This document shows, piece after piece, positions 23,510-61,900 of a DNA stretch of 64,000 nucleotides (its first letter is position 1; each line of letters begins with the position of its first letter). The translations under genes were made by a program, and so were the position numbers. This DNA is from Antedon mediterranea (taxonomy: Eukaryota > Echinodermata > Crinoidea > Comatulida > Antedonidae). Under the pieces are notes generated by a model. That model had not been told where the DNA came from. It searched no databases and saw nothing but the letters and a program-made list of their open reading frames with translations. The stretch is taken from positions 38,808,501-38,872,500 of the forward strand of contig NC_092672.1 in NCBI RefSeq assembly GCF_964355755.1, read 5' to 3'.

Positions 23510-25216
23510 TTATTTTTCGCTGGTATGCCAAAATATTGCAAGTGCAATTGCACTCCCTACTGCAGCATTGACATCATCTGTTGCCATCTCCACTGGTAAA
23601 TCATAAACTCTTTTTAACTCTTCTTGTAAAATTTCATTTTTAAGGAGGGCATTGCCACACCCCACAATCCTTGTAATACCAGCTGTACACAATATCTCCC
23701 TTGGTAACATATCAACCAGATTCTCCATCAATCCAGAACACAGTGCTCTAGACAAATCCCCAATATTCATATTAAATGGTGTGATGTTCCTAACATCGCC
23801 TTTCTTCTTCATTGCATGTCTTTCACCAAAAATTGTGGGATTAATTTTAAGGTCTGTTTTTGTAACATTTTTCCCCTTTTCCATCAATATTGTAATTACT
23901 TTTTCATCAGTGAAGTATTCTTGTGGCACTTGCATAGCCTCCATCATTTGTTGAAACATTTTAACTGTTGCTGCAAGTACATTTCCACCGTTGAGTGATG
24001 CAGCAACTGTTAGGTATGAACCGTTGAAAAAGGGGAAATATTCTAAAGCCTGAGGAAGACTACAACGAGTTGGTTTGAAATCAGAAGGGCATTTAAAGAC
24101 AGCTTGCATTGATGTCCCAACATTTACAACTGAAAGAAAGAATCTGGAGAAATTTCTTTGTGTTGTGCAGGATTGTGGTATCAGGAAATTTGAGTTAATA
24201 AATAATTATCTTGTAATTTATTATAAATGTGGTAGTACATTATTATTTGTTTTGCATTGTTTCTAGCATTAGAAATTTCACACAAGTTATTTAACTGTAG
24301 AACTTGATTTACCTGCATGTGTATCAGATATCAAGTGGGGTAATATTGAACATTGTAGATCACCCATGGCAACACCTACACCAGCTCCTTTTGGTATTCC
24401 TAGCCACGAGGCTTTTAGTTCACCAACTTTTCTGGCTGGTTGAATTACGTTTGGTAGCAAGTTTATTGGAAAACCAGTATTCTGTAGACTGTATAAAGTA
24501 ATTGAATTATTAGATCAAAAATCAATTGACTGTTAACTATTTGCAGAATAAAGACTAACAAAATAAACTTGCATTTACATTTGTTTATTCCATGAATTTG
24601 TGACTGTGTTGTAAAACCCCCAACTTGCTGCATTTTGCACTGACATAACAGGTTTTACTAGGCCACATAATATAGCAGTTAGCATATCCATAATCGTTCC
24701 AGCACAATCAAATCTTACATTTGTGTTACTTCCAAAGAAACTAGGAATATTCTTTTTGATCCATATCAAAGTTGCACATCCATGTCCAGTAGCAAGGTTG
24801 AGATGCGAATCAGGTTGCGGCAGAGTTGTAAGAAAGTCTTCTGAGCATCTCGCATCCTGCCATGTATACAAAGGACTGATGTTATCATCTTGATAACTTG
24901 ATAGATCTAAACAATCATCTATTTGATGGGCGGTAATTAGGTGGGAACTCCATAAAATGACGCCATGCATTTGTCCGGATACAGCAATGCGCCCTATGTG
25001 TTTACGGTGCTCGTCTTTCAGTCTTTGGATGCATGTTGTGCAGGCTTCAAGGATTTTCAAGTGGCATTGCTCACTACCCAATGGTGAAGTATCGCTAACA
25101 ATATCGGCATTGGTATTTTCAGATTGCACATCAAGAACTTGCTGATTTTCACTATCGATGACAGCAACTTTGACAGAGGTTGTACCCAAATCAATACCAA
25201 GTACTAAGAAGCTCAT
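23510..25216 (-). CDS. SHPK: Sedoheptulokinase (carbohydrate kinase-like, CARKL)
   Basis: Three exons on the minus strand: 25216-24579, 24488-24313 and 24129-23510. Phases match, and the product is 477 aa, close to the 478 aa I recall for human SHPK. It phosphorylates sedoheptulose to sedoheptulose 7-phosphate with ATP in the cytosol, feeding the non-oxidative pentose phosphate pathway. FGGY-kinase features are present: GIDLGTTSVKVAV (phosphate-binding, residues ~7-19), SGQMHGVILW, TWQDARC, ATGHGCATLIW, NAASWGFYNT, VAMGDLQ at the domain junction, VGTSMQ (VNISTS-like adenosine motif in the family), SLNGGNV, GERH and VGCGNALLKNEIL near the C-terminus. No broken residues are seen. It is head to head with the ZDHHC gene, with 728 bp between start codons. 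Confidence 0.95.
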
Positions 25217-25944
25217 TTTTCATTTCTGTACTGTATTCTATAAAATAAACACACGACACTAATAAATATTAATATAAAAACATTAATATAAAAACAATAT
25301 TATAGTACTGTAGTATAAACAAAATACTGCATTGCATGGATTCCCTTCTTGTCAATTAAAAAAAATAGACAAACTTCTCATTTCAATTAGATACCTAAAA
25401 TGCCTAATTAAATAATTGATTGTTTGGCTTAAATATATTTCAAATTAAATCATTTTATTGTAAAAATGTACAAACAAATATACAGTATTAACAAAAATAT
25501 GTTGAATGTTGTGTGCATTTATACATTCTCCATGTTTTCCTCCTATTCAGAAATTTCTGTTCAGGCCACCCACCCACCCACCACCATATTTCGGCAGTTC
25601 TCTTATTGAAAAAGATTGACATTTTATATATTTAGAATAATTATTTTTACATAAATTAAAATAAAAAATTAGTTATAAAAATAATATTTTCATTCCTAGC
25701 AATTTTTTATTTTTATACATCTCTTAAAAATATATTACTAGAAGATACAATGTATTTTGAAAAACTTTTTGTGAATACGTAGGCTGTTGGGCGGCGTAAA
25801 AATTGTTGACTACTGCTGCTGCTGCTGCTCGCTCGACGACGACGACCTCTCGGCGGCGGGGTGGAGAGAGACAGATATCACCATATCATTCGGGTCGGCC
25901 TTGGACAAAATGTTGTTAGACTGATCTATCAAACAGTTAATAAA
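25217..25944. promoter_or_regulatory. Likely bidirectional promoter of SHPK and the ZDHHC gene
   Basis: The two start codons diverge across 728 bp. Most is AT-rich, but 25810-25865 is a sharp GC-rich patch (GCTGCTGCTGCTCGCTCG, then CGACGACGACCTC and CGGCGGCGGGG) near the ZDHHC start, consistent with its promoter or 5'UTR. No TATA box is convincingly placed. Confidence 0.5.
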
Positions 25945-28900
25945 ATGGGTTGTTGTAAAAAGAAATGTTTGCCGTCAACAAACATTGTACCAGCCACACT
26001 TGCTTATATATTTCTAATTGGAACCACGTCATTATTTTTTGTATTTATGTAAGTACTATTATGTATTAAAATAATACTGGGTAGAGTTCTTGTTGAAAAT
26101 GTACGTAGGCTAGGCCCAGACCTATGTAGGAGGCAAGACGAGCTAAACTAAACACTCTGAAATTATGTAGCGTCGGCCTAGCCTAGCTAGGTCTTTGTTT
26201 TTGCCATTGGGGAGACGGATTGCTTGTTGATAGACCCAGCTATGTTAGTTCTAACTTGTAGGCTGTATCTTCAAACCAACGCCTTTTTTATTTGGGATTA
26301 ATTGTTAATGTTAGGCCTAATTCTTTCTACTGCCGAGTTAACTGTGAGTGTTGGCCTAGCTAGTAGTAGGTAGCTAGCTAGGCCTAGCCTAGTCCCCCTC
26401 TCTATATAGGCTAGGCCTAGGTTATGCTATATTTTGTATGCCAAAACAAAGTTGTAGTTTTACATGTATTGTTATTTAAAACATGGAGCTTTAAAAATTA
26501 GAATAGAAGGCCTCTCTAGCCTAGCTAGGCCTTTTTCATTGACATTGATTAATTAATCATCATCAGCTGTCAAATGAATAATTTGTAAATTGTAATTATA
26601 TTAATATTATTTGTTAATAATATATTCCAAATTGAATTTTGATTATGTTATTTATCATGATGTGGTCATTGTCAAATTATATACAGGTTATTAACAATAA
26701 TATTAATAAATCTGGCAAAATTTTTATGCGAATTACTTATTCCGGTATTACCTAATCAATATGTGGCGACTGATTCATTCACATTTGTGAAGGAAATCCA
26801 ACATGTTGACACTTCGCACAAATGTATGGTGTCATTTGATGTTGTTAGTTTGTTCACGAACATCCCCCTGTTTGAATGCATTGACATTGCTGTTGACTAT
26901 ATCACTAATGATGTCAATTATAATATGAGCTTAAACAAAAGCGATTTACGCAAATTGTTTTTACTTGCTACAGAAAAAACCAATTTCATATTCAATGGTG
27001 ATATTTATGATCAAATAGACGGTGTGTAAATGGGATCCCCACTTGCACCTGTTTTAGCCAATTTATTTATGGGTCATCATGAACAAACATGGTTAAAGAA
27101 CTTCTCACAAGCTTCGGTCATGTTTTACTGTCGTTATGTTGATGACATTTTTTGTTTATTCAATACAAAAGATGATGCAAATACTTTCTTTGACTATATT
27201 AACGATCAACACCCCAACATAAAGTTCACAATTGAATATGAGATTGACCATTGTCTTCCATTTTTAGATATAATGTTAAACAATAATGGTTCTTCTGTCG
27301 TAACTTCGGTCTTCAGGAAGCCTACCTTCACGGGTCTCCTCACTAATTTTAACAGTTTCACTTCCTTTTCTTACAAAATTGGGCTTGTTCGTACTTTGAT
27401 TGACAGAGTTTACAAATTGAATAATTCCTGGTCTAGCTTTAACAATGACATTTCAACTCTTAAAACCATTTTAAGTAAAAACTGTTTTCCACTCAGTATA
27501 ATTAATGACAATATTTACAGATATCTTAGTAATATTTTTTCTCCTTGCAATGTTGCGTCAGTTGAGTCGATTATTGAACAAAACAAGGTTCTTTATTTTA
27601 AATTACCTTACTTACAGTTTGCCAAATGCGCACAACAAAGAATCGACAAAATTACACGTAAATATTACAAAGGTATTAATATTAAATTAGCTTTCAAATC
27701 ATTCAAAATTTCAAACTTGTTTAGTCTTAAAGACCCTGTCCCTGATGTGTTCCGCTCTTGTGTTGTATATAAATTTAAATGTATGGGATGTAATTCCACG
27801 TATATTGGTGAAACCAATAGACGGTTATCAATGCGGGTGCGTGAACATTTCAGGGACAAGGCTTCTCACATTTTTCAACATCTGTAGGATTCAAAACGGT
27901 GTAAGGCCCTCGCTAATGCGGGTTGCTTCACCGTTCTGGATTCTGCAGATTCCGCTTTCAAACTTAAGGTCAAGGAAGCCCTTCACATCTCGTGGAGTAA
28001 ACCTTCCTTGAACAAACAAATCTATAACTTAGGCGTCACACTTGCCATATGATTGGTTGTTGCCTACATTCCTTGTTTTATTATGCTAATTACTTACCGT
28101 ACCTATTTACATACAATATGTCCTATTGGTATATATAAGCACTCTAGGCGTTGTTTACTGTTCTGATGATGAGAATAGTTTCTCGAAACATGTCACATTT
28201 ACATTTTAAGGCAATTTGCCTTTTTATTAAATGCCTTGTTATAGTCATCCTAACTCGCAAGTTTGGTGGTATTATTCATGATTAATTTATAATTAATATG
28301 GTCAAATCACACCCTCCTCAATGCACCATAAACAGTAATAAAATTCAGACTTAATTTAGTGCATGGAATGCGTAATGTCTCTATGCACTTGACATTAAAA
28401 ACTAAAAAGGCCAACTTCGTCGGATAAAATTAAAATATATTGTAAAGAAAAATTTAATGTATAAAATTAAAAGAATTGTAAAATCGTTGTTGCATGTTGC
28501 AAGTTTCCCCAGAGTATGGTAGTAGGTACTGTATATGGCTTAGCAATGTACTGCTTAGCAATGTATTGCTTAGCAATGTATTGCTTAGCAATGTTTAAAC
28601 TACAGGAATAAATAAAAATACATTTTCATGTACAGTGCTGCATTGTTTTTATTTGGGATCAACTACATTTGAAATGTAGACCTCTGAACCTGTAAAACAT
28701 ATCACCTTTTACTTTATGAATCATTGTTGTAAAAACAAATGTTTAAAATTGAATTTGACAATCTGAATATTAAGCATAGTAATGTACTACTACCATAATA
28801 CAATGGCTGCCTTTTGTAATGCTATTAATTACATAAATAAAAATCAATTATACTTGTTATTACCACAGTGATTCCTAATCTTAGAGTATGCAATCTTCTA

Positions 28901-31900
28901 ATACAAAATACATTATGCATTTTGTATTTGTTCTTTGGATAACCATGAAATTAGACATACTGTTTGTGCTACGTTGTCTCTACTTAGTTTATCCAAAGAA
29001 AAATACAAACATAATTTATTCAAACCAGATGAATTATTTTAGAACAAAGTACATTCTTTTAAAAATGTTTATATGATTTAATGATAATATTTTTCCAAGA
29101 TAGTCTTTTTTGGAAATAAGTAGCCATACTTAAGAATTTTCAAGTACAGTAATATAAACTTCAAGTGTTTTGTTGCACGATTTTCATAATGTTTATTACC
29201 AGTATTGCTGTTTCTTTTTTTTCACAGCATACCAACTCTTACAAAAGATTATACCATATTTATACCAATTTATGATGGTATCTTATTCTTATTTGTTCTT
29301 GGAAATTTTCTTCTGGCAACCTTTGTCGACCCTGGAGTTATTCCACAATGTGAGTATTTTATTTTTAAACAGAACAGATTCTGTCTGAAATATTACGGTC
29401 CTTGTTATTGAATGCAATAAAATGGTTGAACTTCAATAAACAATTGATTGATAATGCTGAAATTTAGTCAATTTAACATTTGTTCAGTTAAGATAATAAT
29501 TCGCTCTAGAGCTCTCAGAATCTCAATGTGCTGATACAGTATGATAAAGTATGTGACATTGAACTTGCATAAAATTAACCAAGCACGTTATTAAAACTGA
29601 TTTATTTTTAAATAAAATTGTCAATATTTATAGCAAAAGGGGATGAAGACAAAGAGGAAGAATCAAGAGCCCCTTTATACAAAGTAGTTGAGATTCAAGG
29701 GTACCAAGTACGCATGAAATGGTGTTCAACTTGTGGATTCTACAGGCCACCTCGTTGCTCACATTGCTCAGTTTGTAATCACTGTATAGAAGTATGTATT
29801 GTTTCTTATTTTAAAACAGCATTTTATTTCTTTATGTCTTGAAGACCTTCCAGTCACGTAATGCAGTGGACAAAGGCCCCTAGTTTAGCGCTCCTAAGGG
29901 GCCCTCCAATACTGAGTAGTTGCATTGGGACTCCTTATGTTCTGGGGTCCAATGCTGGGTTTAGCCAGTGAGAGCTCATAGCCGTTCTGCCACTGGGAAT
30001 TCTAATCACATTGTCTGTGTGTTACAAACAAAGTCCCTTTGTTTTTCCTGTCTTGATATTCTAAAGCTGTGGTAGGTGAACATTCCTGTTAAAACCACAT
30101 TTCTTTTTCTCTCTTTCATTTAAAGTGAAGTAAAAGTTTTAAATCATCTACAATCTTTACATTTAACTACTGTACTTACTAAAGTAGTACTACGGTACAA
30201 ATCAATTAAAAAATGTACAGTTAATTAAATCAATGAATGATATTGAGGATTGTTTTTGTGAAAGCTTTACTTGTGCTTTTAAAGGAAAGATCTCATTTCC
30301 TTGTATGTCATGTGACCTAGCCTTGTGAACTAATAAGCCATTCCTTCAACATGATTCATGTTGCACAAACCATGGATGTATAAAATTAAATTTTATACCT
30401 CCATGGTAACAAACTACTGTATTTCAGAGACAAGACTCTCATTAAAACTGATTCTTTATTATTATTTTGCAGTCCATCCAATTACTTTAAATTATGATTT
30501 GTTTACTATTAATCAACCCTTTTTACTTTTGAAGTATAAAATATACTTTTTATTTTGGCATTGAAGGAAACATTCAAAGTTTAATGCGGGTCCAAAAGTA
30601 AATGAAAGATATAAAGCACTCTCTGTGGAGTATATCTAATACAGGATTCTCATTGAATGTGTTAATGTTCCTGTCTCTAAATTTGACAAAATATGTCCAT
30701 TTGCTTCTGTGATTTCTGTCCTTATTCTTGATGTACAGTACACACATTGTAATCCTCAAAGTACAGTAATAAATTATACTTTACAGCACCTAAAAAGTGC
30801 AGCATAAGAATGTTTATCCAACATATTTATTAAATGTGAATACAGTAAATGAGGTTAAGAATCATCATGTTTCATTTTGCTCCTAACAGTGTTGGCTGAG
30901 ATATTGATATGTTTTGATTTACATTTTCTTCCTTAATTCCTTATTTTGAATCATCATGTTTCATTTTGCTCCTAACAGTGTTGGCTGAGATATTGATATG
31001 TTTTGATTTACATTTTCTTCCTTAATTCCTTATTTTGAATCATCATGTTTCATTTTGCTCCTAACAGTGTTGGCTGAGACATGTTTTGATTTACATTTTC
31101 TTCTTTAATTCCTTATCTTGAATTGTTGCATTAGTTGTTTCAATCCATTGATTGATTTTTGTTTATTACTTTTAAATTCTTTTTATTGATTGGTACGTGA
31201 TTAATTCAGAATTTTTTGGGGATTTTATTTTTGTTAACAAAATCTTGTAAGATGGACATTTTTTAATGAAATTATTGTTGTAAAGTGATTTAACAGAATA
31301 ACATAATAAAACATTGTCACCAAAGATAAAGATTATTTTATGAAACATCGCTGTAAAGCCAGAGGCGACAGTCATGATAATATGGTAATGAATATTACTA
31401 TTGTGTCAAAGCAATATGTTAGAAAGGTCAATTGTTCTAGAATTACTAAGTGAAAAGTTAGATTTAAGTAATTAAGTAAGGAATGAGTCTAACTGGCCTA
31501 CACTAGAGACCAACTTGAAAACCAGGTTCTTCAGAGAACATTTTAAAAATACTCACCTTCATAGATATTTATATTTTGTGTAGAATGATATCATCCAATA
31601 ATTTAGCTAATCAATCAAATAGATTTATAATGCCGCCCTCTACTAATAATCTATTAATCAAATTAATAATTAACTTGAAGATGTATTGTCCTCCCAAAAG
31701 CATGAAAAATGAAGATTAATTAAATCAGACTTTGAATAGGTTATTTTTTAATTTTAATAAAGTAAATCACTTCCGTAGAAAAAACACGGCAAAAAAATAA
31801 TGTTTTCACTTATAAAATAACATGATAAATGGTTAAATTCAACCAAAAATCCATTGGCTGGCAGCCAATTTGACCATTTTTTGCTTTAAATTCCATCCAA

Positions 31901-34900
31901 ATGTTTTATGATCCAATTTTTGGTCAAAGTCAATAACTATTATGTGACATTAAAATGGCATATTCAACAAAAAAAATTTTTGAAAATTATTTTCAGATGG
32001 ACAATACATCTTTAAGACATTTATCACTAGACCTTGTGTCTTTTTAAGATCTTAAAATGGACCTGAAATGGACTTTCGATTTTCAAGAAATTCATACATG
32101 TTATTTAAATGTATCAAATTAACACAAACCCATACAAATAAAAACAAAATGTATAGTATTTTGAGTAAAAACGAAATTTTAAGATACCATGGTAAATTAG
32201 CGAAAATTACTCACGCCATTGCAATATTCTATTTCAACGGCCGTCGGAAGCCTCTATATTCACGACGTCGCATATACACACGATGATATCGAGAGCGTGT
32301 ATGCCGCCCGATAGTCAGTGAATGATCGACGGCCTGGAAAGATACCCGAAGTGTTGACACTAATACTAATTTATTCAATATCTAATGTTGTTGAAATATA
32401 GGTCCCTAAAATGTACTTCGTTTGTTCTAAAACCCGAATTTAGAAGGCCTACTGTACCTCCCAAACCTTTACTAGGCCTAACTAGGCTAGGCCCCCAATC
32501 CAGCGCGCTCCGTTTCATGTGCATCCAAGGACCAAAGCGATATCAACAACTTGCTGTGCTCATTGTCCAGCCAAAGTAAAATATGAATAAAATTCGTTTT
32601 CGAACTGCCTGATTCGTGACAAATAAATTATCATCTCATATTGCTAATTTAATTCTGCTAAACTAAAAACTAAAGAAACTAGCACATTTTAGCAGTATAA
32701 ATTACGAACGATATACAAAATACACGAACAGAAAATATGGATACGCATCATTGCGCACGGAGCTGTATCCCGGACAACGTTGCCAGGCCAACTTCGGTAT
32801 TGCCAGAAAAAAAACGTTGATTTTAAGATTTTAAATCGTCATTTACTCGATAAATAACCGTTTATACGGTAATAATTTTATCTAAAAAAATTCTAAATAC
32901 GTTTCTGCAAATGCACAAGCATTTTTTAGAAAATACTCCATAGATTTCAAGAGTTATAGCCAAAAAACTGCAAATTGTCCATTGGAGGGATAGGAATATA
33001 TTCGCAAAGTGACGTCACCCGCAAATTTTTTTGATTTTCAAATAGGGCTTTCCCCAAAAGGGCCAATTTATATTTTGTAACAATATACATTCTAGCAACA
33101 CCTAATAGCCCCCAAAACATCATTCTAAAATGAAAAAAATCGAAAATCCATTTCAGGTCCATTTTAATGGTACAATAGTTTATCATAACTGATTCAAATT
33201 TAGTGGGCAAGATAAATTTGTGTCTTTTTGACTAGTCTAAGTTGGTTTTAACTTTTAGTGGCGATGCAGGAAATTTATAGAATTTTTTTTTAATTAACCA
33301 TCTACTAGTATTTATCTTTCAGTAAATTTTTTATTTTTTATTTCAGAAATTTGATCATCACTGTCCATGGGTGAATAACTGTATTGGACGTCGGAATTAC
33401 AAGTATTTTGTACAGTTTCTTCTGTCATTGACTATTCATATGGTGTCTGTGTTTACATTCACATTGATCTATATCCTGACTCATAAAGAAGATCTGAAAA
33501 CAACAAAGTGTATTGTTGGGTATCCTTTTTGTTACTAATACGCTACTTTTACACAATCTAGCCTATACAAAATCTATAGGCCTAATTCTTTACCTGTTTT
33601 ATGATGTGTTTCTTTTTAAATTCACCATGATTACTGATTTTTGTAATGTCTTCACATCAAGACAGACATGTTAGGCAATACAATATGTTGTTGATAAAAT
33701 TATAAGAGTATTTTACACAGGTTTTTCAATTTCTTAGAACTATATCTTTTGAATACGGACTAAATAAAATTTTGGAAATTTGAATCAATTCTACACTGTC
33801 CCTCATTTCTACACTGTCCCTCATTTCTACACTGTCCCTCAATTCTACACTGTTGTCCCTCATTTCTACACTGTTGTCCCTCAATTCTACACTGTTGTCC
33901 CTCAATTCTACACTGTTGTCCCTCAATTCTACACTGTTGTCCCTCATTTCTACACTGTTGTCCCTCAATTCTACACTGTTGTCCCTCATTTCTGTGAATA
34001 GTTTCTGTGGTACTTTAGTCATACAGACTCTGTCATGATCCTCTTCGATTTTTTTTAAAGAGTATTTTTGTTTTGTGTTAAAAAACCTTTCAAAAATGTT
34101 GATGAAACTTAGCGACATTTCTGACTCTCAGTTAACATTCTCATGTTTCATTTGTTTACTAATCAAGTTTTCCAATGTTTTATAGAAACGTATAACTGAC
34201 TTGTGTTATTCTTTGTGTTTTACACTCTACTATCCTTCAATACTTGTTACTTGTTATTGTTTTATTGATTGTGTTTGCTTCTTAACCAGCACAGTTTTTG
34301 CGTAGTAGGCATAGTAGCTTTGACATCGTTTCCTGTGTTTGGCCTTGCAGGCTTCCATATGTCCTTAGCAACCAGAGGCCGGACGACCTATGAGCAGGTA
34401 CTTGTGCTGTCGTCCAAAAGTGTGTTGCATGTTAATATATTTGTGCTATGTGCATTTGTCTTGTTTTTACATTGTCTGTGTAATAATGCTACTTTTGAAA
34501 GATGTTTGTTGAAATATGTTGGAAATGTACTGTATGTGGTATGTTTTTTACATCTCACTGTTAATACTTTGTGGGGCGCAGTCATGCATTTTGTAAATAA
34601 ATTTAAATGTTTATGCAAAAATGATTAGTATTTATGTTTAATACAGGACTCCCCACTGACTGCGCCCCAAGCAACGTCATTGTTGTGATTGGTTGTTATA
34701 ATTTCACTGTGATTTTCATATAAATTTTACAAGCTACTGTAAGAGTGCATTGTATATATTTTCATGATCTAGAATCAGTTTTTATCGACAGCACAAGTTT
34801 GGCTAAATGCAAATTTTGTACAAATGTGTAAATTTGCATTATAAGTACTGTATCGTTAATCTTGATGTCAGAGCTTAAGAAAGATGTTTGTGGTACATTG

Positions 34901-37900
34901 AATTTACAATCAATCAATTTGTAGAACAAAGAAGTTAAGCTATGTATTTATCATCATTGACACTAATTCTCAGTATCTGCATTACAAACTATGTTAAAAA
35001 CATTTAAAGTTAAAGAGTGTAAAGTTACAGACTTACATTTGTTTATAGTTGTCTTTTTCACATATTTCTTAATCACAATGGATATTGATGATCAGCTATA
35101 AAATGTCTTCTAACCCTACATTGCGTTTTATTCAGTGATTAGTACATTATCATTCCAGCTTATCCTTCAAATTTGACATCTGATAAATATTTGTTGTGTT
35201 CTATGATCTATATCTTTAAGTAATGTGATACATGTATATTTTATATCCATTTTTAAATATTCACTTATTTTGGTGATTATGTTTTGTATGACTGCATGTG
35301 CTATCATTTCCTTGACAACACTAATTAGTCTTGTTATTTTGGTGATTGTGTTTCTTACATTCATACCGGTCATTATTTTAAGTATATTCCATTCCACCCT
35401 GGTCACCAGGGGGCGCACCACAAATGAACAGGTATGTATACAGCACTGTTTTGTACATTTTATGTCTGCACTATTGAGCACAGGGGGCGCAGGAGTGGTA
35501 TGAACATTGATAAAAAAGTCATTCAACGGGGGCTCTAGCCCCCTCGTCGGGGAGCCTAGCCCCCCGTCGGGGAACACGGGTACTTTTTGTCGGGGAATAA
35601 TAATATACAGTAAAAATCGTTCACTTCGTAGCTTCAGCGCCTAGAAAACCGCGACGTTCCATTGACCGTGAGTACATCAGAGGGCTATTATGCACTATGC
35701 ATTCATTATTGCCAGCGATCTAGCTAAACAGTAGCTAGGTACACACTTGTCTGGCGGTATCCCTTTGTACGAATCGTTCAACGTTGGGTCCAGACGCGTG
35801 ATGTCATGTTCCATCCAGGGACCAAAATGTGTATTGTAGTTACTTTCCAGGCGAAGTTTACCGACGGTTACGTCGTGTACTGTGTGTCGACGTACGCTAC
35901 ACTACAGGAAAAACGAATTATGTTAATTGTTTGTATGTTCACAAATTTTTTGATTTACAAGTAACCCTCTACCATGGGGCACTTAAAATATATATTTCAT
36001 ACATTACTAAACAAAAAAACATGCTATTATTTTCACTTAGCCAACATCTTATTAATTATAGCTAAGTTATTAAATTTTCAATGTCCTGTATGAACTTCTC
36101 ACCACTCGGAAGTTCAGATGGACGTACGTACGCACGCATACACTTGGGAAGTAGGCTATAAACTGATTTCCCCGACTACTAAAAGGTTCTACGCTTGCGG
36201 ACGCACCCCACCTCCCCCTCTAAAATAAAGGCAAAATGGACCACTTTATTTAAGCCTCTAGGCCCGATGTTTCCATAGTATAAGATGCAATTTTTGAAGA
36301 CCTGCAGCTCTGGTTTTAAAAATGTTCTTAGCTCAGCCCCAACCATAAAGCTGGTCATATTTCGAAGAATAATAAGTGCATTTTCCGGGACCTAACAGCT
36401 CTATTTTTCAAAAATGTCTTAGCTCAGTCACAACCATGATAGGGACTATATTTTGTTTCTTGTTTTGAAGTATAATAAGTCCAATTTCCGGGACCTCCAA
36501 CTCTATTTTTCTAAATTTTCTTAGCTCCATCCCAACCACGGTTGTCTGTTTCTGTAGACTTGTAATTTCGTTTCATAGTATCATTAATATGTATATAAAT
36601 TAATTGCAACTTCCGGGGACCTAGCAGCTCTATTTTTCAAAATTTTCTTACGCCTATGCGATAAACAATATAGGCACACCTCTTCGCCTGTTGGTAGCCT
36701 ACGCTTTACGTTTGCGTATATTAATTTTTCTAAGCTACAATTTACCCGATAAATATAGCCATATTTTGAATTTTTTTTTTAAATTGAAAAATATGGATTG
36801 AAACAGTCATCATCGCGCATCGTGTTTTTGCACGCAGTATTTTATTTATGCATTATAAAAAATGGAAAAAGTGGCTACCCTAAATCTTATTAAAATGGCC
36901 TCAAATGACGCTAGAACACCGGGGGCCCTTGGCGGCCCCCAGCCTAGTGATGCTCGCTTCGCTCGCATAGCCCCCTCGTCGGGGAATGTAGCCCCCGCTT
37001 CTGGAAAATCCTGGCGCCACCGCTGTTCTACACGTCTTGTAATTTTGGTAATACACATCAAATACACCTACTTTTAGGTTATTAATCATCTATTTTAGTA
37101 TTCTCATATTTTGAAATGTTACTATTAAGTACTTTCTATCTTAACATCTGTAGTGTAGATACATCATTTATACATGTTATCCAAGTTTTAAAGATTTTGT
37201 CTTTATTTTGTCAGTGTTTAATAATGATAATTTGTACAGCATGATTCTTAATGTAACAAACCGAATGTTTGTAAACAATACTGCTGTAATGTGTATGATT
37301 GATTCCATCATTGTTGGATTGGAAATATATTGATATTATAAAATCCAAAAGTCTGTCATATGAATGGACACTTAATATGCTTGATTTGTGCTTAATGTAA
37401 ATAACATTTTCACATCCTGTTTCAATAATCATGGTCTAAATATTATCTATAAAATATTCACAAAGTTTGTATATGAGTGACTCAAAGCCAACTTGCTCTG
37501 TTTATGTACAGAATGCTTCCATCAATAAACCTTTGCGTCTTTAATGGTGAGATTAATCTTGTTCATCTGTTTAAAATTGTTTTCAATAGGATGAATTAAA
37601 CCATTTTTTTTTAGGTAACAGGCAAGTTCAGAAGTGGTCATAATCCTTTTGATATGGGATGTTGGAGTAACTGTGGTGATGTATTCTGCATACCATGGCG
37701 ACCAAGGTAAATGTCTTATTCTCATTTTAATAAATCTTAAGGGTTATGCAGTCAAATGATACAACAATATCTAAATGAATATGTCTTTATCCTGATATCA
37801 ATCTATCTATCTATCTAATATCTAAATGAATATGTCTTTATCCTGATATCAATCTATCTATCTAATATCTAAATGAATATGTCTTTAATATCCTGATATC

Positions 37901-39627
37901 AATCTATCTATTTATCTATCTAATATCTAAATGAATATGTCTTTATCCTGATATCAATCTATCTATCTATCTAATATCTAAATGAATATGTCTTTATCCT
38001 GATATCTATCTATCTATCTAATATCTAAATGAATATGTCTTTATCTTGATATCAATCTCATTGTTCATGAATATATTGTTATATTTCTGTCTTCATAATA
38101 TTTGTTGTTTGTCTTCATAATATTTGTTGTAATTTTTTTTTCTTCACTATATTCTTTACATTCTATAATTCAATTTTGTCATAGTCTTGAATTTTTAATA
38201 TTTGTATTATCATTCTTGATTCTTATTGTCATAATCATAATCTTTATTGTCATAATCTTTATTGTCATAATCTTAATCTTTGTTGTCATAATCTTTGTTG
38301 TCATAATCTTTATTGTCATAATCTTTATTGTCATAATCATAATCTTTATTGTCATAATCATAATCTTTATTGTCATAATCATAATCTTTATTGTCATACA
38401 ATAATCTTTATTGTCATAATCATAATCTTTATTGTCATAATCATAATCTTTATTGACATAATTTAAGTTGTAAATGTTATCTTTTTCAGTATTGTTGCAA
38501 GCAGAATCATACTAATTTAAGGCAATTTAATTGCACCACTTTTTTTAGTTTTGGATTACAATGGTTATGATTGTCTTTCAGATATTTAGGTTACAAAGGA
38601 TGTACATTGACATTGGCAGCACTCTATGCTCCTCAACCACTTAAAAACCTGTCTGAAAGTGAGATTCGTCTTAACGTCAGTGGAAATGGTGCTCCACCAG
38701 TCTTCAACAGATCAAATAATTACCCAAACTATGTAAATCTCTTGTAATTACTATGTATATTGTATATTACATTGAGCCCAGTACTGTTATTAGGTGTGAA
38801 TAACTGGACATGCATCTAATGGTCAACCAGTGACCACTCTGAGTTAGGGTAGTCATTTTGTAAACATTTATTCTTGTTTTAAACCATTAAAGTATTATCT
38901 CAAACTGATTCAAAATCATAAATAAATTATAAATACATTATAATGCTGAGAGAATATCGTGTTTTGATCATGATGTCTGCTTTTGTTTTCACAGAGTGTC
39001 AATTCCCCTAGTAACCATGCTGTAATGTATGGCAAACCTAATTATCAAGACGAAGGTCAGAGTTTAGACACTGAGGAAGAAGAGCCACCACCATATGCTA
39101 GAACACCACTACGTCAAGACTTTCAGCATTTACGAGAAATGGCACGAGTTGCACCACCTCAGGCTTCTAACAGACACGAACAAAGCAACGGTGATAAAAC
39201 ACCTCCAATGTATGATTACAACCCGGTTGAGAACCTACAGAGTCCATCGTCCCGTCGACAACCAAGAATCGAACAACCTATTCAAAATAATGTTCACATA
39301 GACAATAGAGGGCAAGTTTTACCACCAGATGAATTAAGATCTAATCCAAATTCTGGGAAGCCAATCGGCAGGCACCAAAATATACAACTCGAACAATCAC
39401 GAGTTCGTCGCCCGATTTCATTTGTGACGGCGCTTGAAATGAGCAGAGAGGCTGAAGATATGCAGAAGTCGCAGTCTTCGCCTACTAAAAAGTCAACATC
39501 AATGAAACCAAAGGCCAATGGACGAAACCAACATTTTCGTGGTAACAAGGACTCAACACCAGGCCATGCATATTGTATGCAAGACTCATCACACATGGGC
39601 TCACAGAGTTTTGAAGTTTCTGTATAA
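25945..39627 (+). CDS. Palmitoyltransferase ZDHHC5/8-type with alternative exon 5
   Basis: Eight coding exon positions: 25945-26048, 29228-29349, 29634-29791, 33347-33519, exon 5 as 34295-34397 or 35329-35431, 37615-37706, 38582-38732 and 38995-39627. All phases agree, giving 511 aa. The membrane enzyme transfers palmitate to protein cysteines. The cysteine-rich domain has [19 protein letters not shown] and then [17 protein letters not shown] with the catalytic DHHC at residues 131-134. Four membrane segments flank it; DPGVIP follows TM2. Both versions of exon 5 encode TM4 and the TTxE motif (TTYE or TTNE). [12 protein letters not shown] and the C-terminal FEVSV match the ZDHHC5/8 branch, where an EISV tail binds PDZ domains. 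The N-terminus has MGCCKKKC, possibly self-palmitoylated. It is shorter than vertebrate ZDHHC5/8 (about 700-765 aa) because the tail is reduced. ZDHHC5 and ZDHHC8 are vertebrate paralogues, so no single symbol is given. Confidence 0.93.
26100..26530. repeat. GGCCTAG-rich tract in ZDHHC intron 1
   Basis: Clustered CTAGGCCTAGC-type words just downstream of exon 1, of the same kind as at 15.0-15.7 kb. Confidence 0.6.
26700..28270 (+). pseudogene. Penelope-like retroelement relic (RT plus GIY-YIG endonuclease)
   Basis: It lies in ZDHHC intron 1, same strand. The frame starts about 26704 (AKFLCELL, 5'-truncated) and carries RT motifs: [26 protein letters not shown], the catalytic YVDDIF and RKPTFTG. 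These are followed by [20 protein letters not shown], a GIY-YIG endonuclease as in Penelope/Neptune-type elements. Two stops interrupt an otherwise open frame, TAA at 27027 (just before MGSPLAP) and TAG at 27885. The frame continues past the second stop ([19 protein letters not shown]) to TGA at 28050-28052. A ~200-bp 3' region with a hammerhead-like core follows. The element is inactive as it stands, but little decayed. Confidence 0.9.
28163..28194 (+). ncRNA. Hammerhead ribozyme-like core of the Penelope-like element
   Basis: CTGATGA (28163-28169), then a 5-bp stem GAGAA/TTCTC with a TAGT loop (28171-28184), then GAAAC and ATGTC (28185-28194). This is the order of a minimal type I hammerhead with a very short stem III. 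Stem I (bases before 28163 against bases after 28194) pairs poorly, so catalysis is doubtful. Hammerhead motifs are known in Penelope-like elements; the assignment here is by motif only. Confidence 0.55.
28539..28600 (+). repeat. 18-bp minisatellite in ZDHHC intron 1
   Basis: About four copies of GCTTAGCAATGTATT-type units. Confidence 0.85.
30859..31125 (+). repeat. 89-bp tandem repeat (3 copies) in ZDHHC intron 3
   Basis: Units begin GAATCATCATGTTTCATTTT at 30859, 30948 and 31037. The third has a ~12-bp deletion after TGGCTGAGA. They contain CTCCTAACAG, a splice-acceptor-like word, but no exon. Confidence 0.92.
32056..33163. mobile_element. TTAA-flanked TIR element in ZDHHC intron 3
   Basis: Inverted ends AATGGACCTGAAATGGACTT (32056) and the complement ending at 33163, matching over ~28 bp with about one mismatch. 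They are flanked by TTAA at 32052-32055 and 33164-33167, the target used by piggyBac/Kolobok-like transposases. There is no transposase, so it is non-autonomous. Confidence 0.8.
33784..33995 (+). repeat. 18/21-bp minisatellite in ZDHHC intron 4
   Basis: Eleven or so units of TTCTACACTGTTGTCCCTCA, the first three lacking TTG. Open on both strands but intronic and without domain content. Confidence 0.95.
34295..34397 (+). other. ZDHHC alternative exon 5a
   Basis: 103 nt, preceded by AACCAGCACAG and followed by GTACTT. It encodes 35 codons with the split first codon: [13 protein letters not shown], then [16 protein letters not shown]. It enters in phase 2 and leaves in phase 0, exactly like exon 5b. 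It forms TM4 and the TTxE motif. Confidence 0.88.
34398..34840 (+). promoter_or_regulatory. Complementary intronic segments beside the exon 5a donor
   Basis: Three perfect complementary pairs lie in the intron between exons 5a and 5b. ACTTGTGCTGTCG (34400-34412, positions +3 to +15 of the exon 5a donor) pairs with 34786-34798. Nested inside it, TGGGGCGCAGTCA (34572-34584) pairs with 34657-34669. Just outside, AATGCAAATTT (34806-34816) pairs with 34830-34840. The outer pairing would bury the donor. A regulatory role is inference. Confidence 0.6.
35329..35431 (+). other. ZDHHC alternative exon 5b
   Basis: 103 nt, preceded by CTAATTAG and followed by the consensus donor GTATGT. It encodes the 35-residue alternative [12 protein letters not shown], then [15 protein letters not shown]. 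Of the two it looks closer to vertebrate ZDHHC5/8 ([11 protein letters not shown]), so it is probably the ancestral version. Confidence 0.88.
35470..37025 (+). mobile_element. Transposon-derived insertion in ZDHHC intron 5
   Basis: Related G/C-rich words TAGCCCCCTCGTCGGGG occur at both ends (~35537 and ~36969). Internal CTGGCGGT, TTTGTACGAATCGTTC and CAGGGACCAAA words match, on the opposite strand, the element in ZW10 intron 1 (57097-58122). Exact boundaries and superfamily are not resolved; no transposase is seen. Confidence 0.55.
37790..38065 (+). repeat. ~50-bp minisatellite with CTAT microsatellite, ZDHHC intron 6
   Basis: Six units of ATATCTAAATGAATATGTCT joined by variable CTAT runs. 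Confidence 0.9.
38215..38462 (+). repeat. 15/21-bp repeat in ZDHHC intron 6
   Basis: Imperfect units of TAATCTTTATTGTCATAATC. The resulting isoleucine-rich open frame is a by-product of the repeat. Confidence 0.9.
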
Positions 39628-45481: not shown

Positions 45482-48400
45482 ATGGTGTACAGTTCTTTTT
45501 ATCTTCCTGGAATAAGATTTATTAATCTTACTAGGTCATACATCATCCTTGCTGGTCTTACATCTGTTGTTTTCTGGATCACAGGTTTGTACAATAATTA
45601 GTTTTCATTTTTAATTGATAACATTTGATTTGAATTTACATTCTACTGTATTGTAGACCTATACTCTAAATCATAAAAGTTTAAATTATCTATATATTGC
45701 AAAATTGCTTTTTAAAGTTCGTACCTGAAGATTTTTTTTTATGGAGGCAAATGTCATTGATGTAACAAAATGCTTACAAATTGTTTTTAGGATTGTTTTA
45801 TAAAAATTTAAAAATGTAAATTGTTTATAATTTATATAAATTTAGGTGGACATGATGCTTATCTGGAGCAAACAGTAATCAAGTGGAGTATAACAACATC
45901 AGCCTTTGAGCTTGCCTGTATCGCATTTATCAAAGTTTTCATTCTCTTCTTTCTGTACACTAAGATAGAAGACTACACACTACGGATACTAGATGATCCT
46001 TACAACTTATATTTAGAGAGTCGCAAACGTCTCTACCTTATCTTTATCTTTATTACGTCTTTCATCTGCTTTGGGTATGCGTGTGTCAAAGGTGGTTTGG
46101 TTCTAAACCTGCTTCTTAATGATGCATCCTACCAACCTATGCATGTGATGTATAATGCACTGGTTATTGCATCAATAGTGTTTGGTTTAATAGATGTCTT
46201 GCTATGTTTATCATGCCCATATTTTCTTCGTAAATTGTTAATACTTCGCGTACAAAAACGCTTTAATGATGATCATCAAGAAATAGACGACAATGGAAAG
46301 GTGATGAAGAAGGAATCAAGTGTGTCTTTAGCACGTGTGATGGGTCTAGCTAAAAAAGTAAGTTCTTCTAAAAAAAATGTAGATTTTTAGAAATTCTTTA
46401 AAAAATAATTTTTGGAATTTTTAGATTTAAAAAATGTTGTTGGAAATTCAATTGAAATTTTTCTGGAAGATCATTCGTCATATATTTTCTGTAAACCTTG
46501 CAGATACAATGAGTAAGGGAATAAGTAAGGGAATGAGTAATGAGTAAGGGATTGAGTAAGGGATTGAGTAATGAGTAAGGGAATAAGTAAGGGATTGAGT
46601 AATGAGTAAGGGAATAAGTAAGGGATTGAGTAATGAGTAAGGGAATAAGCAAAAATGCATTCAATTTAGTTCATTCTGTGCAATAAGTAAATATGTTGGA
46701 TGAAAATGAATTATTTTGAATAACGTTCATAACTATACTGGTACTTGAATAACAAACAAAGGTTTAATTGTACATTAAAATGAATCATAATAATAGCTTA
46801 AATTATTTTGTTTAGGAAGCTGGTATTCTGTTTATTGGAACGGTATCTCTGATCTTCTCAAGTGCGTCAACCATGGCATCCCCTCTATTCTTTGGCAAGG
46901 TCATAGATGCAGCAACTGACCCTAATACCAAGGACATGAGTAAGCCAACATTATCACTCATCAGCAATCCACTATTACCATATTATATATATATATATAA
47001 TATAATATTACCCATCCCCAATTTTCATTATTACTTTCCATTGCTATTTTACTGTATTAACAGTTATTGATATAAATAAGAACTCCACAAAATATAAATA
47101 TTTGCTACATGGCTGAAGATTGTTTTTTTCTCTTGTCAGGTGAAGTGAATAAAGCTGTTTTGATATTGTTTGCCATTAATGCTGGTGGCGCTGTTGCCTC
47201 CTTCTTCCGTTCCTGGCTTTTTACACTTGCCGGTACACGTGTTGTGTGCCGTGTTCGTAGCAAACTACTTGCTGCCATTATCCAGCAAGATATTGCATTC
47301 TTTGATATGAACCGCACTGGTGAACTAACTAGTCGATTATCTTCTGACACACAAGTTGTTCAAAATGCTATAACAGTATGTTTTATTTTTTTATTCTGCA
47401 GTCACTTTCAGTACTAGTGCACTAATTTTCAAAGTGGTACAGTAATTGGAAATATCATGACCAACATAATAAAGTAAAGACAAAAGAGTAATCAAAATTA
47501 TAAATAGAGAAAATATACATTAAAAATAGAATATTATTTAATTGATTATTCCTTATGATTGAATATTGGGCAATTTTATCTTATGATGTATAGCAAACTT
47601 AACTTTTTTTAAACAATTTTTTCCACGACAGGTGAATATATCAATGCTGATGCGCTATTCATTCCAGATCCTAGGCTCACTGATTATAATGTTGGTACAA
47701 AGCCCATCACTCACTGGTGTTCTCTTGTCTGTTATACCTATTGTGGCAGTTGGAGCTATGCAGTATGGTATGCTTTTATTAAATTTTACTGGAGTTGGTT
47801 TTCTTTAATTTTTTAGTTTAGTAGAAAAAAGGTAGACATTTTCTGACAAAACCTAAAAATAGAAAAAACATAAAAATAATTATTCTTCTTTATTGTATCA
47901 AACAAAACAAAAATTTTTTCAATACAAAAGGTTGCCAAGATATAGCCAAAGCTAATAAAGCTTGGTACCTTTTATCTTAACTAACTTAAGCTACGAAATT
48001 ATCAAATAAATGACAGAACTTAAAAGAAAATAAAAATTTTATAACGTCAAAAACAAAACAAAACATTTTGAATAATAAATAAATAACATAACATAACATA
48101 AAGTGCTGTATGTACTATACTGTAATAAACAAAACCATATCAGTTCAATAGATAATATCTGATGAATTAACAATATATAAAACATTGTAAATTATAGATT
48201 ATTCTTTTATATACTTAAATAAAAGTAATTCTTTAAGTTGTTTAGAGAAAGCAAATCTAGATGTAATTGTTCGTAATTGTACTCTGCACAAATATATTTT
48301 TTTGGTACTCCAGTTAATTGTATTTGCAGTGGGTAAATTTTTAAATAAAATTAAATTTGTGAGAGACAACTCTTTGATGTTAGTTTCCAGTTGTTGTTAC

Positions 48401-51196
48401 CTTTAAAAATGATATTTTTGTATTTTAAGGTAAATTTGTGAAAGGAATCAGTAAAAAGTTCCAAGATGCCCTTGGGGATGCAAGTACCGTTGCAGAGGAG
48501 TCCATCTCAAGTATTAGAACTGTACGTAGCTTTACAAGTGAACCAAAAGCTATGAAAATGTACAACAAAGAAATTGACCACAGCTATGGATTTGGAAAGA
48601 AAATTGCTCTAGCAGCCGGAATATTCAATGGTATCATTGGCATTGTTGCTCAGGTGAATGAATCTCTTGTGTATTCTTCCAAATAGAAACAATAATAAGT
48701 AAATGTTGTTTTTTCCAATGTGTCCAGCTGTAGGAAGTTAATCTGTACTATTTGTTGTTGATTTATTAGTAGGCCAAACTTCTGGGTGTACATTGCTGCT
48801 GTTGTCAATTGATATGGAATATGGTGGAAGAACATCAATAACAATGTCCTTTCCTTGTTTGTAGGGAGCTATTACATTAGTGTTATGGTATGGAGGCAAG
48901 CTTGTATATAACAATGTCCTTTCCTTGTTTGTAGGGAGCTATTACATTAGTGTTATGGTATGGAGGCAAGCTTGTATATAACAATGTCCTTTCCTTGTTT
49001 GTAGGGAGCTATTACATTAGTGTTATGGTATGGAGGCAAGCTTGTATATAACAATGTCCTTTCCTTGTTTGTAGGGAGCTATTACATTAGTGTTATGGTA
49101 TGGAGGCAAGCTTGTATATAACAATGTCCTTTCCTTGTTTGTAGGGAGCTATTACATTAGTGTTATGGTATGGAGGCAAGCTTGTATATAACAATGTCCT
49201 TTCCTTGTTTGTAGGGAGCTATTACATTAGTGTTATGGTATGGAGGCAAGCTTGTATATAACAATGTCCTTTCCTTGTTTGTAGGGAGCTATTACATTAG
49301 TGTTATGGTATGGAGGCAAGCTTGTATATAATGGTGATATTACTGTTGGTGTTTTAACAGGTACAGTAAAACAATCATCAAAATAAGTTTATTCTAAATG
49401 GTTTAGAATTATATTACAAATGTGTAGTAGCCATCTAAACATGATTCATTAGAATTATTTATCATTTCCCTACATTTTCAACATCTAATGATCAATATGA
49501 AATTCAACCTAAAGAATTTAGCAACTGTATGAATGAGCAACATTAAATAATATTTATTATATTCATTTTTAATAGCATTTATGTTGTATACATTAAATGT
49601 TGCTATGGCATTTGCCTTCTTGAGTTCTCTGTATGGTGACTTTATGAAAGCAGTTGGCGCTTCTGTGCGTGTTTTTGAACTCATGGATCGTGTCCCAGAC
49701 ATAAGTAACAGTGGAGGAAATAAGCTGATAGAATTTGATGGAAGCATCAGATTCGAAAATATCAGTTTCACATACCCATCAAGACCTGATAACCCGGTAC
49801 TTAAGGTAAATCAATTGAATTTTATATACGCATCAAGGCCTGACAACCTGGTATTTCAAGTAAATAAATTGATAGATATTACATACAAGGTTAGACAAGC
49901 AATTTCATGAGTTCTTTTATATAATTTTTTTTCAAAGGATCGGTTTGACAGAAAAATTACAATGCATCGAATAAAGGTCACAATAGTTAGCATAAAAACT
50001 GTTGTGATCTTTCTCAATGCATAATTTGTTTTCACTTTTAACAGGGTGTGACATTTAGTGTAAATCCTGGCCAGATGGTAGCATTAGTGGGCCCTTCAGG
50101 GGGAGGGAAGTCTACTATTGTAAACCTTATTGAGAGGTTTTATGAGCCTGAATCAGGAAGAATTCAATTTGGTAAGTTATTAATGCATAAAATACTTTGT
50201 AAATATGTTTTGAGAACTTAATCAGATACAGAAATGCTTATTTATAATTATTAACAATGGTTTTTTGTTGGTAGGGGGTACTGATTTAAAAACACTTGAT
50301 CCTCAATGGTTTCGTAAGGAGATAGGTATGGTGAGCCAGGAACCAGTACTATTTGCTTGCTCTATAAAAGAGAATATCGCATATGGCAAAGATGCTGATG
50401 ATGAAGAGGTAAGCAATATTTTCTATACTACAGTAGCAACAATATATTATACCAAAAATGTTAGGAAGATAATGAAAGTTATATCTATCTATCTATGTAT
50501 CTACAGATTGTAGAGGCTGCCAAGCAAGCCAATGCTCACGATTTTATTGAATCCTTTGAAGATGGTTATGACACGAAAGTAGGAGAAAGAGGTGTACGAT
50601 TATCTGGGGGTCAGAAACAGCGAGTGGCTATAGCCCGTGCACTTATTATGAATCCATCGGTACTCCTTCTTGATGAGGTTTGTTTTCTTATTCATTCATC
50701 ACTGTCATCAATATATTTATATACGCTTTATAAATCAATCTATTACAATGTATAATTGTTATTTGTTGTTTTTTTGGTTGATATAGGCTACAAGTGCACT
50801 GGATGCAGAAAGTGAGTTTCTTGTGCAAGAGGCTATAGATCGAGCCATGCAAAATAGGACAGTGTTGGTTATAGCACATAGACTATCAACAGTACGCAAT
50901 GCATCTCAGGTTAGTACAGAAGAACATTTTTTTTTCTCCTTTTTTACCATTATAATATTGTGTGTGATAATGATTTCAATGATTAGTTCAGTGATTTAGA
51001 TTATATAAACTTTATGTCTGTACAATATTTTTTAAAGGTCGTAGTTATAAAGGAGGGAACTGTGGCAGAAATTGGAACTCATAATGAACTACTTGAGAAA
51101 GGGGGGGTCTACAAGGACCTTGTACTGAGACAATTGAGCTCCGGAACAGAACCAAAACCTGAGAAGGACCATTCCATTAATGCAGATTTGGACTAA
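45482..51196 (+). CDS. ABC transporter subfamily B half-transporter with N-terminal extra membrane domain
   Basis: Thirteen coding exons: 45482-45584, 45846-46357, 46816-46939, 47140-47375, 47632-47767, 48430-48653, 49285-49360, 49576-49805, 50045-50171, 50275-50408, 50507-50677, 50787-50909 and 51038-51196. Phases are consistent and the product is 784 aa. Residues ~1-170 hold about four hydrophobic segments like the TMD0 of TAP/TAPL. Residues ~205-480 are the six-helix ABC membrane domain ([32 protein letters not shown]). The ATPase is complete: Walker [10 protein letters not shown] (~563), Q-loop VSQEPVLF, signature LSGGQKQR (~666), Walker B LLLDE, D-loop SALD and AHRLST (~722). It should dimerise and export a substrate with ATP; the substrate is unknown. 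The ATPase resembles ABCB8/9/10; I cannot assign the paralogue. Exon 7 is inside a splice-site repeat. Confidence 0.92.
46510..46650 (+). repeat. GAGTAAGGGAATAAGTAA-type minisatellite, ABC intron 2
   Basis: Irregular tandem units of GAGTAAGGGAATAAGTAAGG. The overlapping minus-strand frames rich in PLLITHSLT are repeat artefacts. Confidence 0.9.
47882..48412 (-). mobile_element. Dispersed element (second copy at 12237-12592), ABC intron 5
   Basis: Minus-strand insertion. Its last ~355 bp match the element inside the satellite block, ending AATAAAGAAGAA. The longer copy here also has a frame ending in [17 protein letters not shown], which might be the C-terminus of an element-encoded protein; I could not place the family. 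Confidence 0.65.
48841..49330 (+). repeat. 70-bp array (7 identical copies) spanning the ABC exon 7 acceptor
   Basis: Seven apparently identical 70-bp units start at 48841, 48911, 48981, 49051, 49121, 49191 and 49261. Each contains CCTTGTTTGTAG, the 3' splice site, and the first 46 nt of exon 7 (GGAGCTATTACATTAGTGTT and on). Only the last unit continues into the rest of exon 7 (to 49360). Because 70 is not a multiple of 3, use of an earlier acceptor shifts the frame and meets a TAA. Confidence 0.97.
49815..49880 (+). repeat. Relic duplication of the ABC exon 8 end and donor
   Basis: ATACGCATCAAGGCCTGACA and AACCTGGTATTTCAAGTAAAT with AAATTGATA mirror the true exon end (CATACCCATCAAGACCTGAT, AACCCGGTACTTAAGGTAAAT, CAATTGAA at ~49765-49817). 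It still encodes [10 protein letters not shown]. It is diverged, so older than the exon 7 array. Confidence 0.8.
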
Positions 51197-58900: not shown

Positions 58901-61900
58901 ATTACCAAATCATAAAATAATTAATATTTTTTTGATTGATTCATGCCAAATATTTCTTTTATGTCTTTGCCTGGAGCTGTACATTGTCAGAAATCCTGTT
59001 TTTTGCTTCTCTCAAATGCCTTTTGTTTCCACTCCCCACCCAACATTTAAATAATCAGTGACCTGGTTTAAGACTATTACAACACACAGGCAAAGTTTTT
59101 TTTTTTTTCTCTTTTGTGGTTAACTACCACTTTTATTCATTCTTTCATACAAATTTCGTTCACATTGCATTTTCATACATTAAATTTCTGTTTTCTACTT
59201 TTTTCGTTATTTTCAGATTTTTACTCTTTTAACCTTTATACATATAGTGGTTTGATTATATGCATACACAGGCAAAGTTTATTGTAAATTTCAAATTGTA
59301 ACATAATGTTATTTTCTAGATACATGAAGGGTTGCAATCATTTAAACATTCGGTATCTTCTCAAGATTACATAAATGCAGCTGATAGTTTGGGAAAACTT
59401 GTAAGTAATACAAAGACACAAGAACATTATACCTTATTAATGTATAGAATGTGGCAGCTGTACATTGTAGTAATAATAATAGTAATAATGTATAGAATGT
59501 GGCAGCTGTACATTGTAGTAATAATAATAGTAATAATGTATAGAATGTGGCAGCTGTACATTGTAGTAATAATAATAGTAATAATGTATAGAATGTGGCA
59601 GCTGTACATTGTAGTAATAATAATAGTAATAATAATGTATAGAATGTGGCAGCTGTACATTGTAGTAATAATAATAGTAATAATGTATAGAATGTGGCAG
59701 CTGTACATTGTAGTAATAATAATAGTAATAATGTATAGAATGTGGCAGCTGTACATTGTAGTAATAATAATAGTAATAATAATGTATAGAATGTGGCAGC
59801 TGTACATTGTAGTAATAATAATAATAATAATGTATAGAATGTGGCAGCTGTACATTGTAGTAATAATAATAGTAATAATGTATAGAATGTGGCAGCTGTA
59901 CATTGTAGTAATAATAATAGTAATAATGTATAGAATGTGGCAGCTGTACATTGTAGTAATAATAATAGTAATAATAATGTATAGAATGTGGCAGCTGTAC
60001 ATTGTAGTAATAATAATAATAATAATGTATAGAATGTGGCAGCTGTACATTGTAGTAATAATAATAGTAATAATGTATAGAATGTGGCAGCTGTACATTG
60101 TAGTAATAATAATAGTAATAATGTATAGAATGTGGCAGCTGTACATTGTAGTAATAATAATAGTAATAATGTATAGAATGTGGCAGCTGTACTTTGTAGT
60201 AATAATAATAGTAATAATGTATAGAATGTGGCAGTTGTACATTGTAGTAATAATAATAGTAATAATGTATAGAATGTGGCAGCTGTACATTGTAGTAATA
60301 ATAATAGTAATAATGTATAGAATGTGGCAGCTGTACATTGTAGTAATAATAATAGTAATAATGTATAGAATGTGGCAGCTGTACATTGTAGTAATAATAA
60401 TAGTAATAATGTATAGAATGTGGCAGCTGTACATTGTAGTAATAATAATAGTAATAATGTATAGAATGTGGCAGCTGTACATTGTAGTAATAATAATAGT
60501 AATAATAATGTATAGAATGTGGCAGCTGTACATTGTAGTAATAATAATAATAATAATGTATAGAATGTGGCAGCTGTACATTGTAGTAATAATAATAGTA
60601 ATAATGTATAGAATGTGGCAGCTGTACATTGTAGTAATAATAATAGTAATAATGTATAGAATGTGGCAGCTGTACATTGTAGTAATAATAACAGTAATAA
60701 TGTATAGAATGTGGCAGCTGTACATTGTAGTAATAATAATAGTAATAATGTATAGAATGTGGCAGCTGTACATTGTAGTAATAATAATAGTAATAATGTA
60801 TAGAATGTGGCAGCTGTACATTGTAGTAATAATAATAGTAATAATGTATAGAATGTGGCAGCTGTACATTGTAGTAATAATAATAGTAATAATGTATAGA
60901 ATGTGGCAGCTGTACATTGTAGTAATAATAATAGTAATAATGTATAGAATGTGGCAGCTGTACATTGTAGTAATAATAATAGTAATAATGTATAGAATGT
61001 GGCAGCTGTACATTGTAGTAATAATAATAGTAATAATGTATAGAATGTGGCAGCTTTACATTGTAGTAATAATAATAGTAATAATGTATAGAATGTGGCA
61101 GCTGTACATTGTAGTAATAATAATAGTAATAATGTATAGAATGTGGCAGCTGTACATTGTAGTAATAATAATAGTAATAATGTATAGAATGTGGCAGCTG
61201 TACATTGTAGTAATAATAATAGTAATAATGTATAGAATGTGGCAGCTGTACATTGTAGTAATAATAATAGTAATAATGTATAGAATGTGGCAGCTGTACA
61301 TTGTAGTAATAATAATAGTAATAATGTATAGAATGTGGCAGCTGTACATTGTAGTAATAATAATAGTAATAATGTATAGAATGTGGCAGCTGTACATTGT
61401 AGTAATAATAATAGTAATAATGTATAGAATGTGGCAGCTGTACATTGTAGTAATAATAATAGTAATAATGTATAGAATGTGGCAGCTGTACATTGTAGTA
61501 ATAATAATAGTAATAATGTATAGAATGTGGCAGCTGTACATTGTAGTAATAATAATAGTAATAATGTATAGAATGTGGCAGCTGTACATTGTAGTAATAA
61601 TAATAGTAATAATGTATAGAATGTGGCAGTTGTACATTGTAGTAATAATAATAGTAATAATGTATAGAATGTGGCAGCTGTACATTGTAGTAATAATAAT
61701 AGTAATAATGTATAGAATGTGGCAGCTGTACATTGTAGTAATAATAATAGTAATAATGTATAGAATGTGGCAGCTGTACATTGTAGTAATAATAATAGTA
61801 ATAATGTATAGAATGTGGCAGCTGTACATTGTAGTAATAATAATAGTAATAATGTATAGAATGTGGCAGCTGTACATTGTAGTAATAATAATAGTAATAA

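Follow-up and report, generated by a model that had tools for sequence, protein, structure and literature searches.

Mutually exclusive exons that mix U2- and U12-type splice sites have been described in MAPK8/9 (JNK, exons 6a/6b) and in TMEM87A/B (exons 11/11a) (PMC8329584, PMC3584512). In these genes the intron upstream of the pair is of the U2 type, and the alternative exons carry competing U2 acceptors together with U12 donors (PMC8329584). Inclusion of one exon or the other is decided by competition and by class incompatibility (PMC8329584, PMC3584512), and it is established that U12 and U2 sites are mutually incompatible (PMC3584512). This incompatibility explains five human clusters of exclusive exons, or 0.79% (PMC5740500). 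Human catalogues of mutually exclusive exons describe neighboring homologous exons that share length and phase and lie inside a folded domain, and tandem duplicated exons are enriched in membrane proteins (PMC5740500; PMC9741552). ZDHHC genes are not mentioned by name in the main text of either PMC5740500 or PMC9741552. The fourth intron of ZDHHC8 belongs to the U12 type with GT-AG ends, in humans as well as in flies (Drosophila CG34449/CG32705; PMC2831892). The human SNP rs175174, located in this intron, has been linked only to intron retention (PMC1274335), and no second TM4 exon is described for human or Drosophila ZDHHC8 in the literature examined. A preliminary description of the locus reported here knew of no such arrangement in ZDHHC5/8 genes; our search of openly licensed papers agrees, as it found neither this exon pair nor exclusive exons in any ZDHHC gene reported.

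The window analyzed here is a stretch of 64,000 nucleotides (C3:38808501-38872500) from the 354 Mb genome of the crinoid Antedon mediterranea. It contains, on the plus strand, a complete ZDHHC5/8 gene (25945-39627; Table 1) with which human ZDHHC5 aligns exon by exon in a tblastn search. The eight-exon coding sequence is open from ATG to stop and encodes 511 residues with exon 5a and with exon 5b alike. The predicted palmitoyltransferase comprises the DHHC domain, four transmembrane segments (TMs) and the TTxE motif. Its nearest solved chain is ZDHHC5 (9oa6; 7.9e-42 and 7.9e-43), with ZDHHC9 in second place. The Pfam DHHC score is 108.3 bits for exons 3 and 4 alone, and reaches 129.0 bits after exons 5a and 6 are joined to them, or 132.8 bits with exons 5b and 6. 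The gene is single copy, and the 5a/5b pair was not found a second time in a search of the genome. The N-terminus predicted from positions 25945-25968, MGCCKKKC, resembles an N-terminal myristoylation/palmitoylation signal and differs from the start of human ZDHHC5. Intron 1 harbors a reverse-transcriptase remnant (PF00078; 26661-27887) with a stop between two frames. On the 5' side the gene is flanked by a carbohydrate kinase (FGGY; 24578-25219, minus strand), and on the 3' side by an ABC transporter gene (45812-50755, with PF00005 at 50465-50752). Elsewhere in the window, a ZW10-like exon (58344-58679) adjoins a long minisatellite (59320-62238), which is open in several frames; the latter is low-complexity sequence and not a gene.

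Table 1. Coordinates, in the window, of the exons of the ZDHHC5/8 gene and of the predicted splicing elements around exons 4 to 6.
Feature	Position	Strand	Evidence
Exon 1 (coding; MGCCKKKC..., TM1)	25945..26048	+	tblastn with human ZDHHC5; ORF through all exons
Exon 2 (TM2, DPG motif)	29228..29349	+	tblastn; ORF
Exon 3 (start of DHHC cysteine-rich domain)	29634..29791	+	tblastn; ORF
Exon 4 (DHHC motif, TM3; phase 2 out)	33347..33519	+	tblastn; ORF
U12-type 5' splice site of intron 4, GTATCCTTT	33520..33528	+	0 mismatches
U12-type branch site of 5a, CTTCTTAAC	34278..34286	+	1 mismatch (core) to TCCTTRAC
Exon 5a, alternative (TM4 with GLAG, TTYE; U2-type donor GTACTT)	34295..34397	+	
Predicted RNA structure, 34400-34412 pairing with 34786-34798 (donor +3 to +15)	34400..34798	+	
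U12-type branch site of 5b, TTCCTTGAC	35308..35316	+	exact match
Exon 5b, alternative (TM4 with ILSI, TTNE; U2-type donor GTATGT)	35329..35431	+	
Exon 6 (VTGKF..., PaCCT region; U2-type acceptor T9AG)	37615..37706	+	tblastn; ORF
Exon 7 (cytosolic tail)	38582..38732	+	ORF
Exon 8 (tail; C-terminal SFEVSV, stop)	38995..39627	+	ORF

Exons 5a and 5b are adjacent and homologous, and each is 103 nucleotides long with phase 2 in and phase 0 out. Their translations each contain a full TM4 followed by TTxE, as the preliminary description had stated, and its coordinates for the end of exon 4, for both alternative exons and for the start of exon 6 are exact to the base. Exon 4 ends in phase 2 at the boundary TTGG/GTATCC, and both alternative exons end in CAG/GT. 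The two peptides share 19 of 35 residues. In a tblastn search within the window each of the two exons retrieves its counterpart (E 3e-7 and 5e-7). The same search gave no third copy in the window, and hence no third alternative exon between exons 4 and 6. Both the hydrophobic pattern and the RGRTTxEQ stretch are conserved between 5a and 5b, and synonymous sites look randomized: identity is 18/34 at first codon positions, 25/34 (74%) at second positions and 11/35 (31%) at third positions. When neutral decay to the observed divergence was simulated, 0 of 5000 runs for each copy retained both an uninterrupted frame and the protein similarity seen here, which led us to dismiss a chance similarity. 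On this evidence the homology of 5a and 5b is old and coding-constrained, with the pattern expected of old duplicates that are each under constraint. An assembly duplicate or a haplotype artifact is ruled out as the origin of the pair, the exons being too diverged and the gene single copy. No relatives were found in prokaryotic and viral contig collections. The pair resembles those of the human catalogues in its equal length and phase and its location inside a folded domain, and represents the case of a membrane enzyme. Within 5b, CACCAGGGGGCGC (35404-35416) matches the CTCF-like core CANNAGRNGGCRS, possibly by chance; the window has no other such match, with 0.24 expected. CTCF at exons has been linked to splicing.

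The sites that surround the two exons fall into distinct classes. The exon 4 donor, GTATCCTTT, is the only perfect U12-type site among the 7014 GTs of the window, exact over RTATCCTT, and the single window match to RTATCCTTT; the remaining donors of the gene have 3 to 7 mismatches to the U12 consensus, versus none for exon 4. Both acceptors that could receive this donor are preceded by a predicted U12-type branch site. The branch site of 5b, TTCCTTGAC, is located 13 nt ahead of the AG at 35328 and ranks first among the 3566 YAG sites of the window. The weaker branch site of 5a, CTTCTTAAC, is located 9-10 nt ahead of the AG at 34294 and belongs to the top 1.4% of the same sites. The spacing of 5b is thus inside the 11-13 nt optimum reported for U12 introns (PMC3584512), and that of 5a is below it. 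No U12 branch sites were found at the other acceptors of the gene, which score far lower. The donors of 5a and 5b and the acceptor of exon 6 are U2-type in appearance. In the acceptor region of 5a there are two AGs at a distance of five bases. The upstream one, a decoy CAG at 34289, is ruled out as the 5a acceptor, as its use gives stop codons. It lies 4 nt past the branch site, compared with 9-10 nt for the in-frame AG at 34294, and the U12 spacing rule therefore favors the latter. The genome contains snRNA genes for U6atac (136.6 bits) and U12 (125.7 bits), as expected for a minor spliceosome. Finally, matched by intron number, intron 4 corresponds to the U12-type intron 4 of human and fly ZDHHC8, which provides independent support for its classification here. 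Between exon 4 and 5a this intron also harbors a 21-bp tandem repeat in 10 copies (33785-33993).

These site classes suggest how the two exons may exclude each other. The U12 donor of exon 4 would join only U12 acceptors, of which one precedes 5a and one precedes 5b, and the U2 donors of 5a and 5b would join only the U2 acceptor of exon 6. Matching by class would give 4-5a-6 and 4-5b-6, whereas 4-5a-5b-6 and 4-6 would be disfavored at the splicing step because each needs a mixed U2/U12 pair. The reading frame discriminates in the same way. Joining 5a to 5b runs into a TGA shortly before 5b ends, and joining exon 4 straight to exon 6 produces an immediate GGG-TAA, so that including both exons or neither is unproductive, as had been proposed. 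The preliminary description had deduced exclusivity from 103 not being a multiple of three; its arithmetic holds, but the frame is probably just a second safeguard. Were the frame the main cause, splicing would be free and the bad products would be destroyed by nonsense-mediated decay. The stops in both wrong combinations agree with this explanation, which we nevertheless find very unlikely, given that splice-site classes match for the two productive combinations only. Most likely, then, splice-site class enforces exclusivity, with the frame break behind it. Steric exclusion between 5a and 5b is ruled out, the two exons being 931 nt apart. The sequence gives good support to the proposal that this ZDHHC5/8 gene has a mutually exclusive TM4/TTxE pair, and we consider it highly probable that the gene produces two isoforms of the palmitoyltransferase, identical outside TM4/TTxE, with exclusivity built into the splice sites.

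Compared with MAPK8/9 and TMEM87A/B, the arrangement is a mirror image. The upstream intron is of the U12 type, two U12 acceptors face one U12 donor, and the donors of the alternative exons are U2-type. The locus therefore differs in design from the JNK/TMEM87 type, where the alternative exons have U2 acceptors and U12 donors, but would work alike, through competition and class incompatibility. Isoform choice would amount to a competition of two U12 acceptors for a single U12 donor. The pair probably originated by tandem duplication of the exon that follows intron 4 of ZDHHC8, an old U12 intron. The exon, its U12 acceptor and its U2 donor would have been copied together, and a mutually exclusive pair would have resulted at once. 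That a decision of the minor spliceosome picks the TM4/TTxE variant by this mirror of the JNK scheme, after duplication in one step, seems to us reasonably likely. Two properties of U12 introns count against the model, namely that the choice of U12 acceptors is described as error-prone and alternative splicing of U12 introns as nearly absent (PMC3584512).

The two exons do not appear to be equally strong. Exon 5b is probably the default form, since its branch site, spacing and donor are better than those of 5a, and 5a is probably the regulated form. With its imperfect branch site and sub-optimal spacing, 5a could also be weak or decaying. Taken further, one exon, likeliest 5a, might be an unused duplicate or a source of unproductive mRNA, leaving effectively one isoform. 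The poorer branch site and spacing of 5a and its weaker donor (C at +4, T at +5) point in this direction, as do the decoy AG, which leads to a stop when used, and a possible stem that covers donor positions +3 to +6. However, 5a retains its open frame, both splice sites, the TM4 glycines and TTxE in spite of saturated synonymous sites (31% identity at third versus 74% at second codon positions). We regard a gene with effectively one isoform as quite unlikely, and a loss of 5a use, if any, is possibly recent.

The stem belongs to a strongly structured segment of the intron that follows 5a. The outer 13-bp stem over the 5a donor (Table 1), with a predicted pairing probability near 1, encloses a second 13-bp stem, also predicted and perfect (34572-34584 / 34657-34669). 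The 420-nt fold has a z of about -5, and equally strong duplexes are few within 28-42 kb. A mobile element is ruled out as the origin of this segment, as no second copy was found in the genome and no Rfam family matches. Flanking U2-type introns aid U12 splicing by exon definition (PMC3584512), and anything that masks the 5a donor should therefore favor 5b. Competing RNA secondary structure might accordingly decide between the exons, with the stem blocking U1 at the 5a donor and shifting splicing to 5b as long as it stays closed. However, the prediction pairs the donors of exons 2 and 3, which are constitutive, to an equal degree, and equal or stronger duplexes occur at 3.8% of window positions, many of them in repeats. 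The stem is for these two reasons treated as a lead, and a decision by RNA structure seems unlikely: judged from this genome alone, the local structure is strong but without excess over constitutive donors, and a role of the structured intron in exon choice is only suggestive.

If competing U12 acceptors select between 5a and 5b as proposed, the consequences for the protein would concern TM4 and TTxE. In the solved ZDHHC20, the four TMs build the acyl cavity, the lining of which sets chain-length preference, and TTxE touches the DHHC domain (PMC8059564, PMC7586229), in agreement with the contact to the catalytic domain that the preliminary description had stated for DHHC enzymes. The variable position of TTxE is Tyr in 5a, Asn in 5b and Ile in ZDHHC20. 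Against human ZDHHC5, 5a matches at 18/36 residues and 5b at 19/36. The two TM4 glycines of the human protein are kept in 5a alone (as GLAG), and its FI, V and the Asn of TTNE in 5b alone. Where human ZDHHC5 and ZDHHC9 have the small-residue pair GLxG, 5b has ILSI, and the two lost glycines count against the model. Because both versions preserve TT-E and the hydrophobic character of TM4, neither topology nor basic catalysis should be lost. A change in membrane position, which had been suggested as one outcome of the switch, is unlikely because 5a and 5b each carry the whole TM4. What probably distinguishes the isoforms is the packing of TM4 or the fit of the acyl chain, not topology. Altered partner binding between them is plausible, as are the effects on regulation or substrate choice that had also been envisaged.

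The known class-dependent exclusive pairs carry their U12 sites on donors, whereas here they are predicted on acceptors. At this locus, duplicating the exon downstream of the U12 intron seems to have produced a self-enforcing switch without extra regulators, and the pair may represent a natural test of the minor spliceosome choosing between two acceptors. Since the U12 character of intron 4 extends from flies to humans, the duplication can be looked for in further animals. Finally, the swap of TM4 and TTxE would touch both the acyl cavity and the DHHC domain, and the two isoforms would thus constitute a natural structure-function pair.
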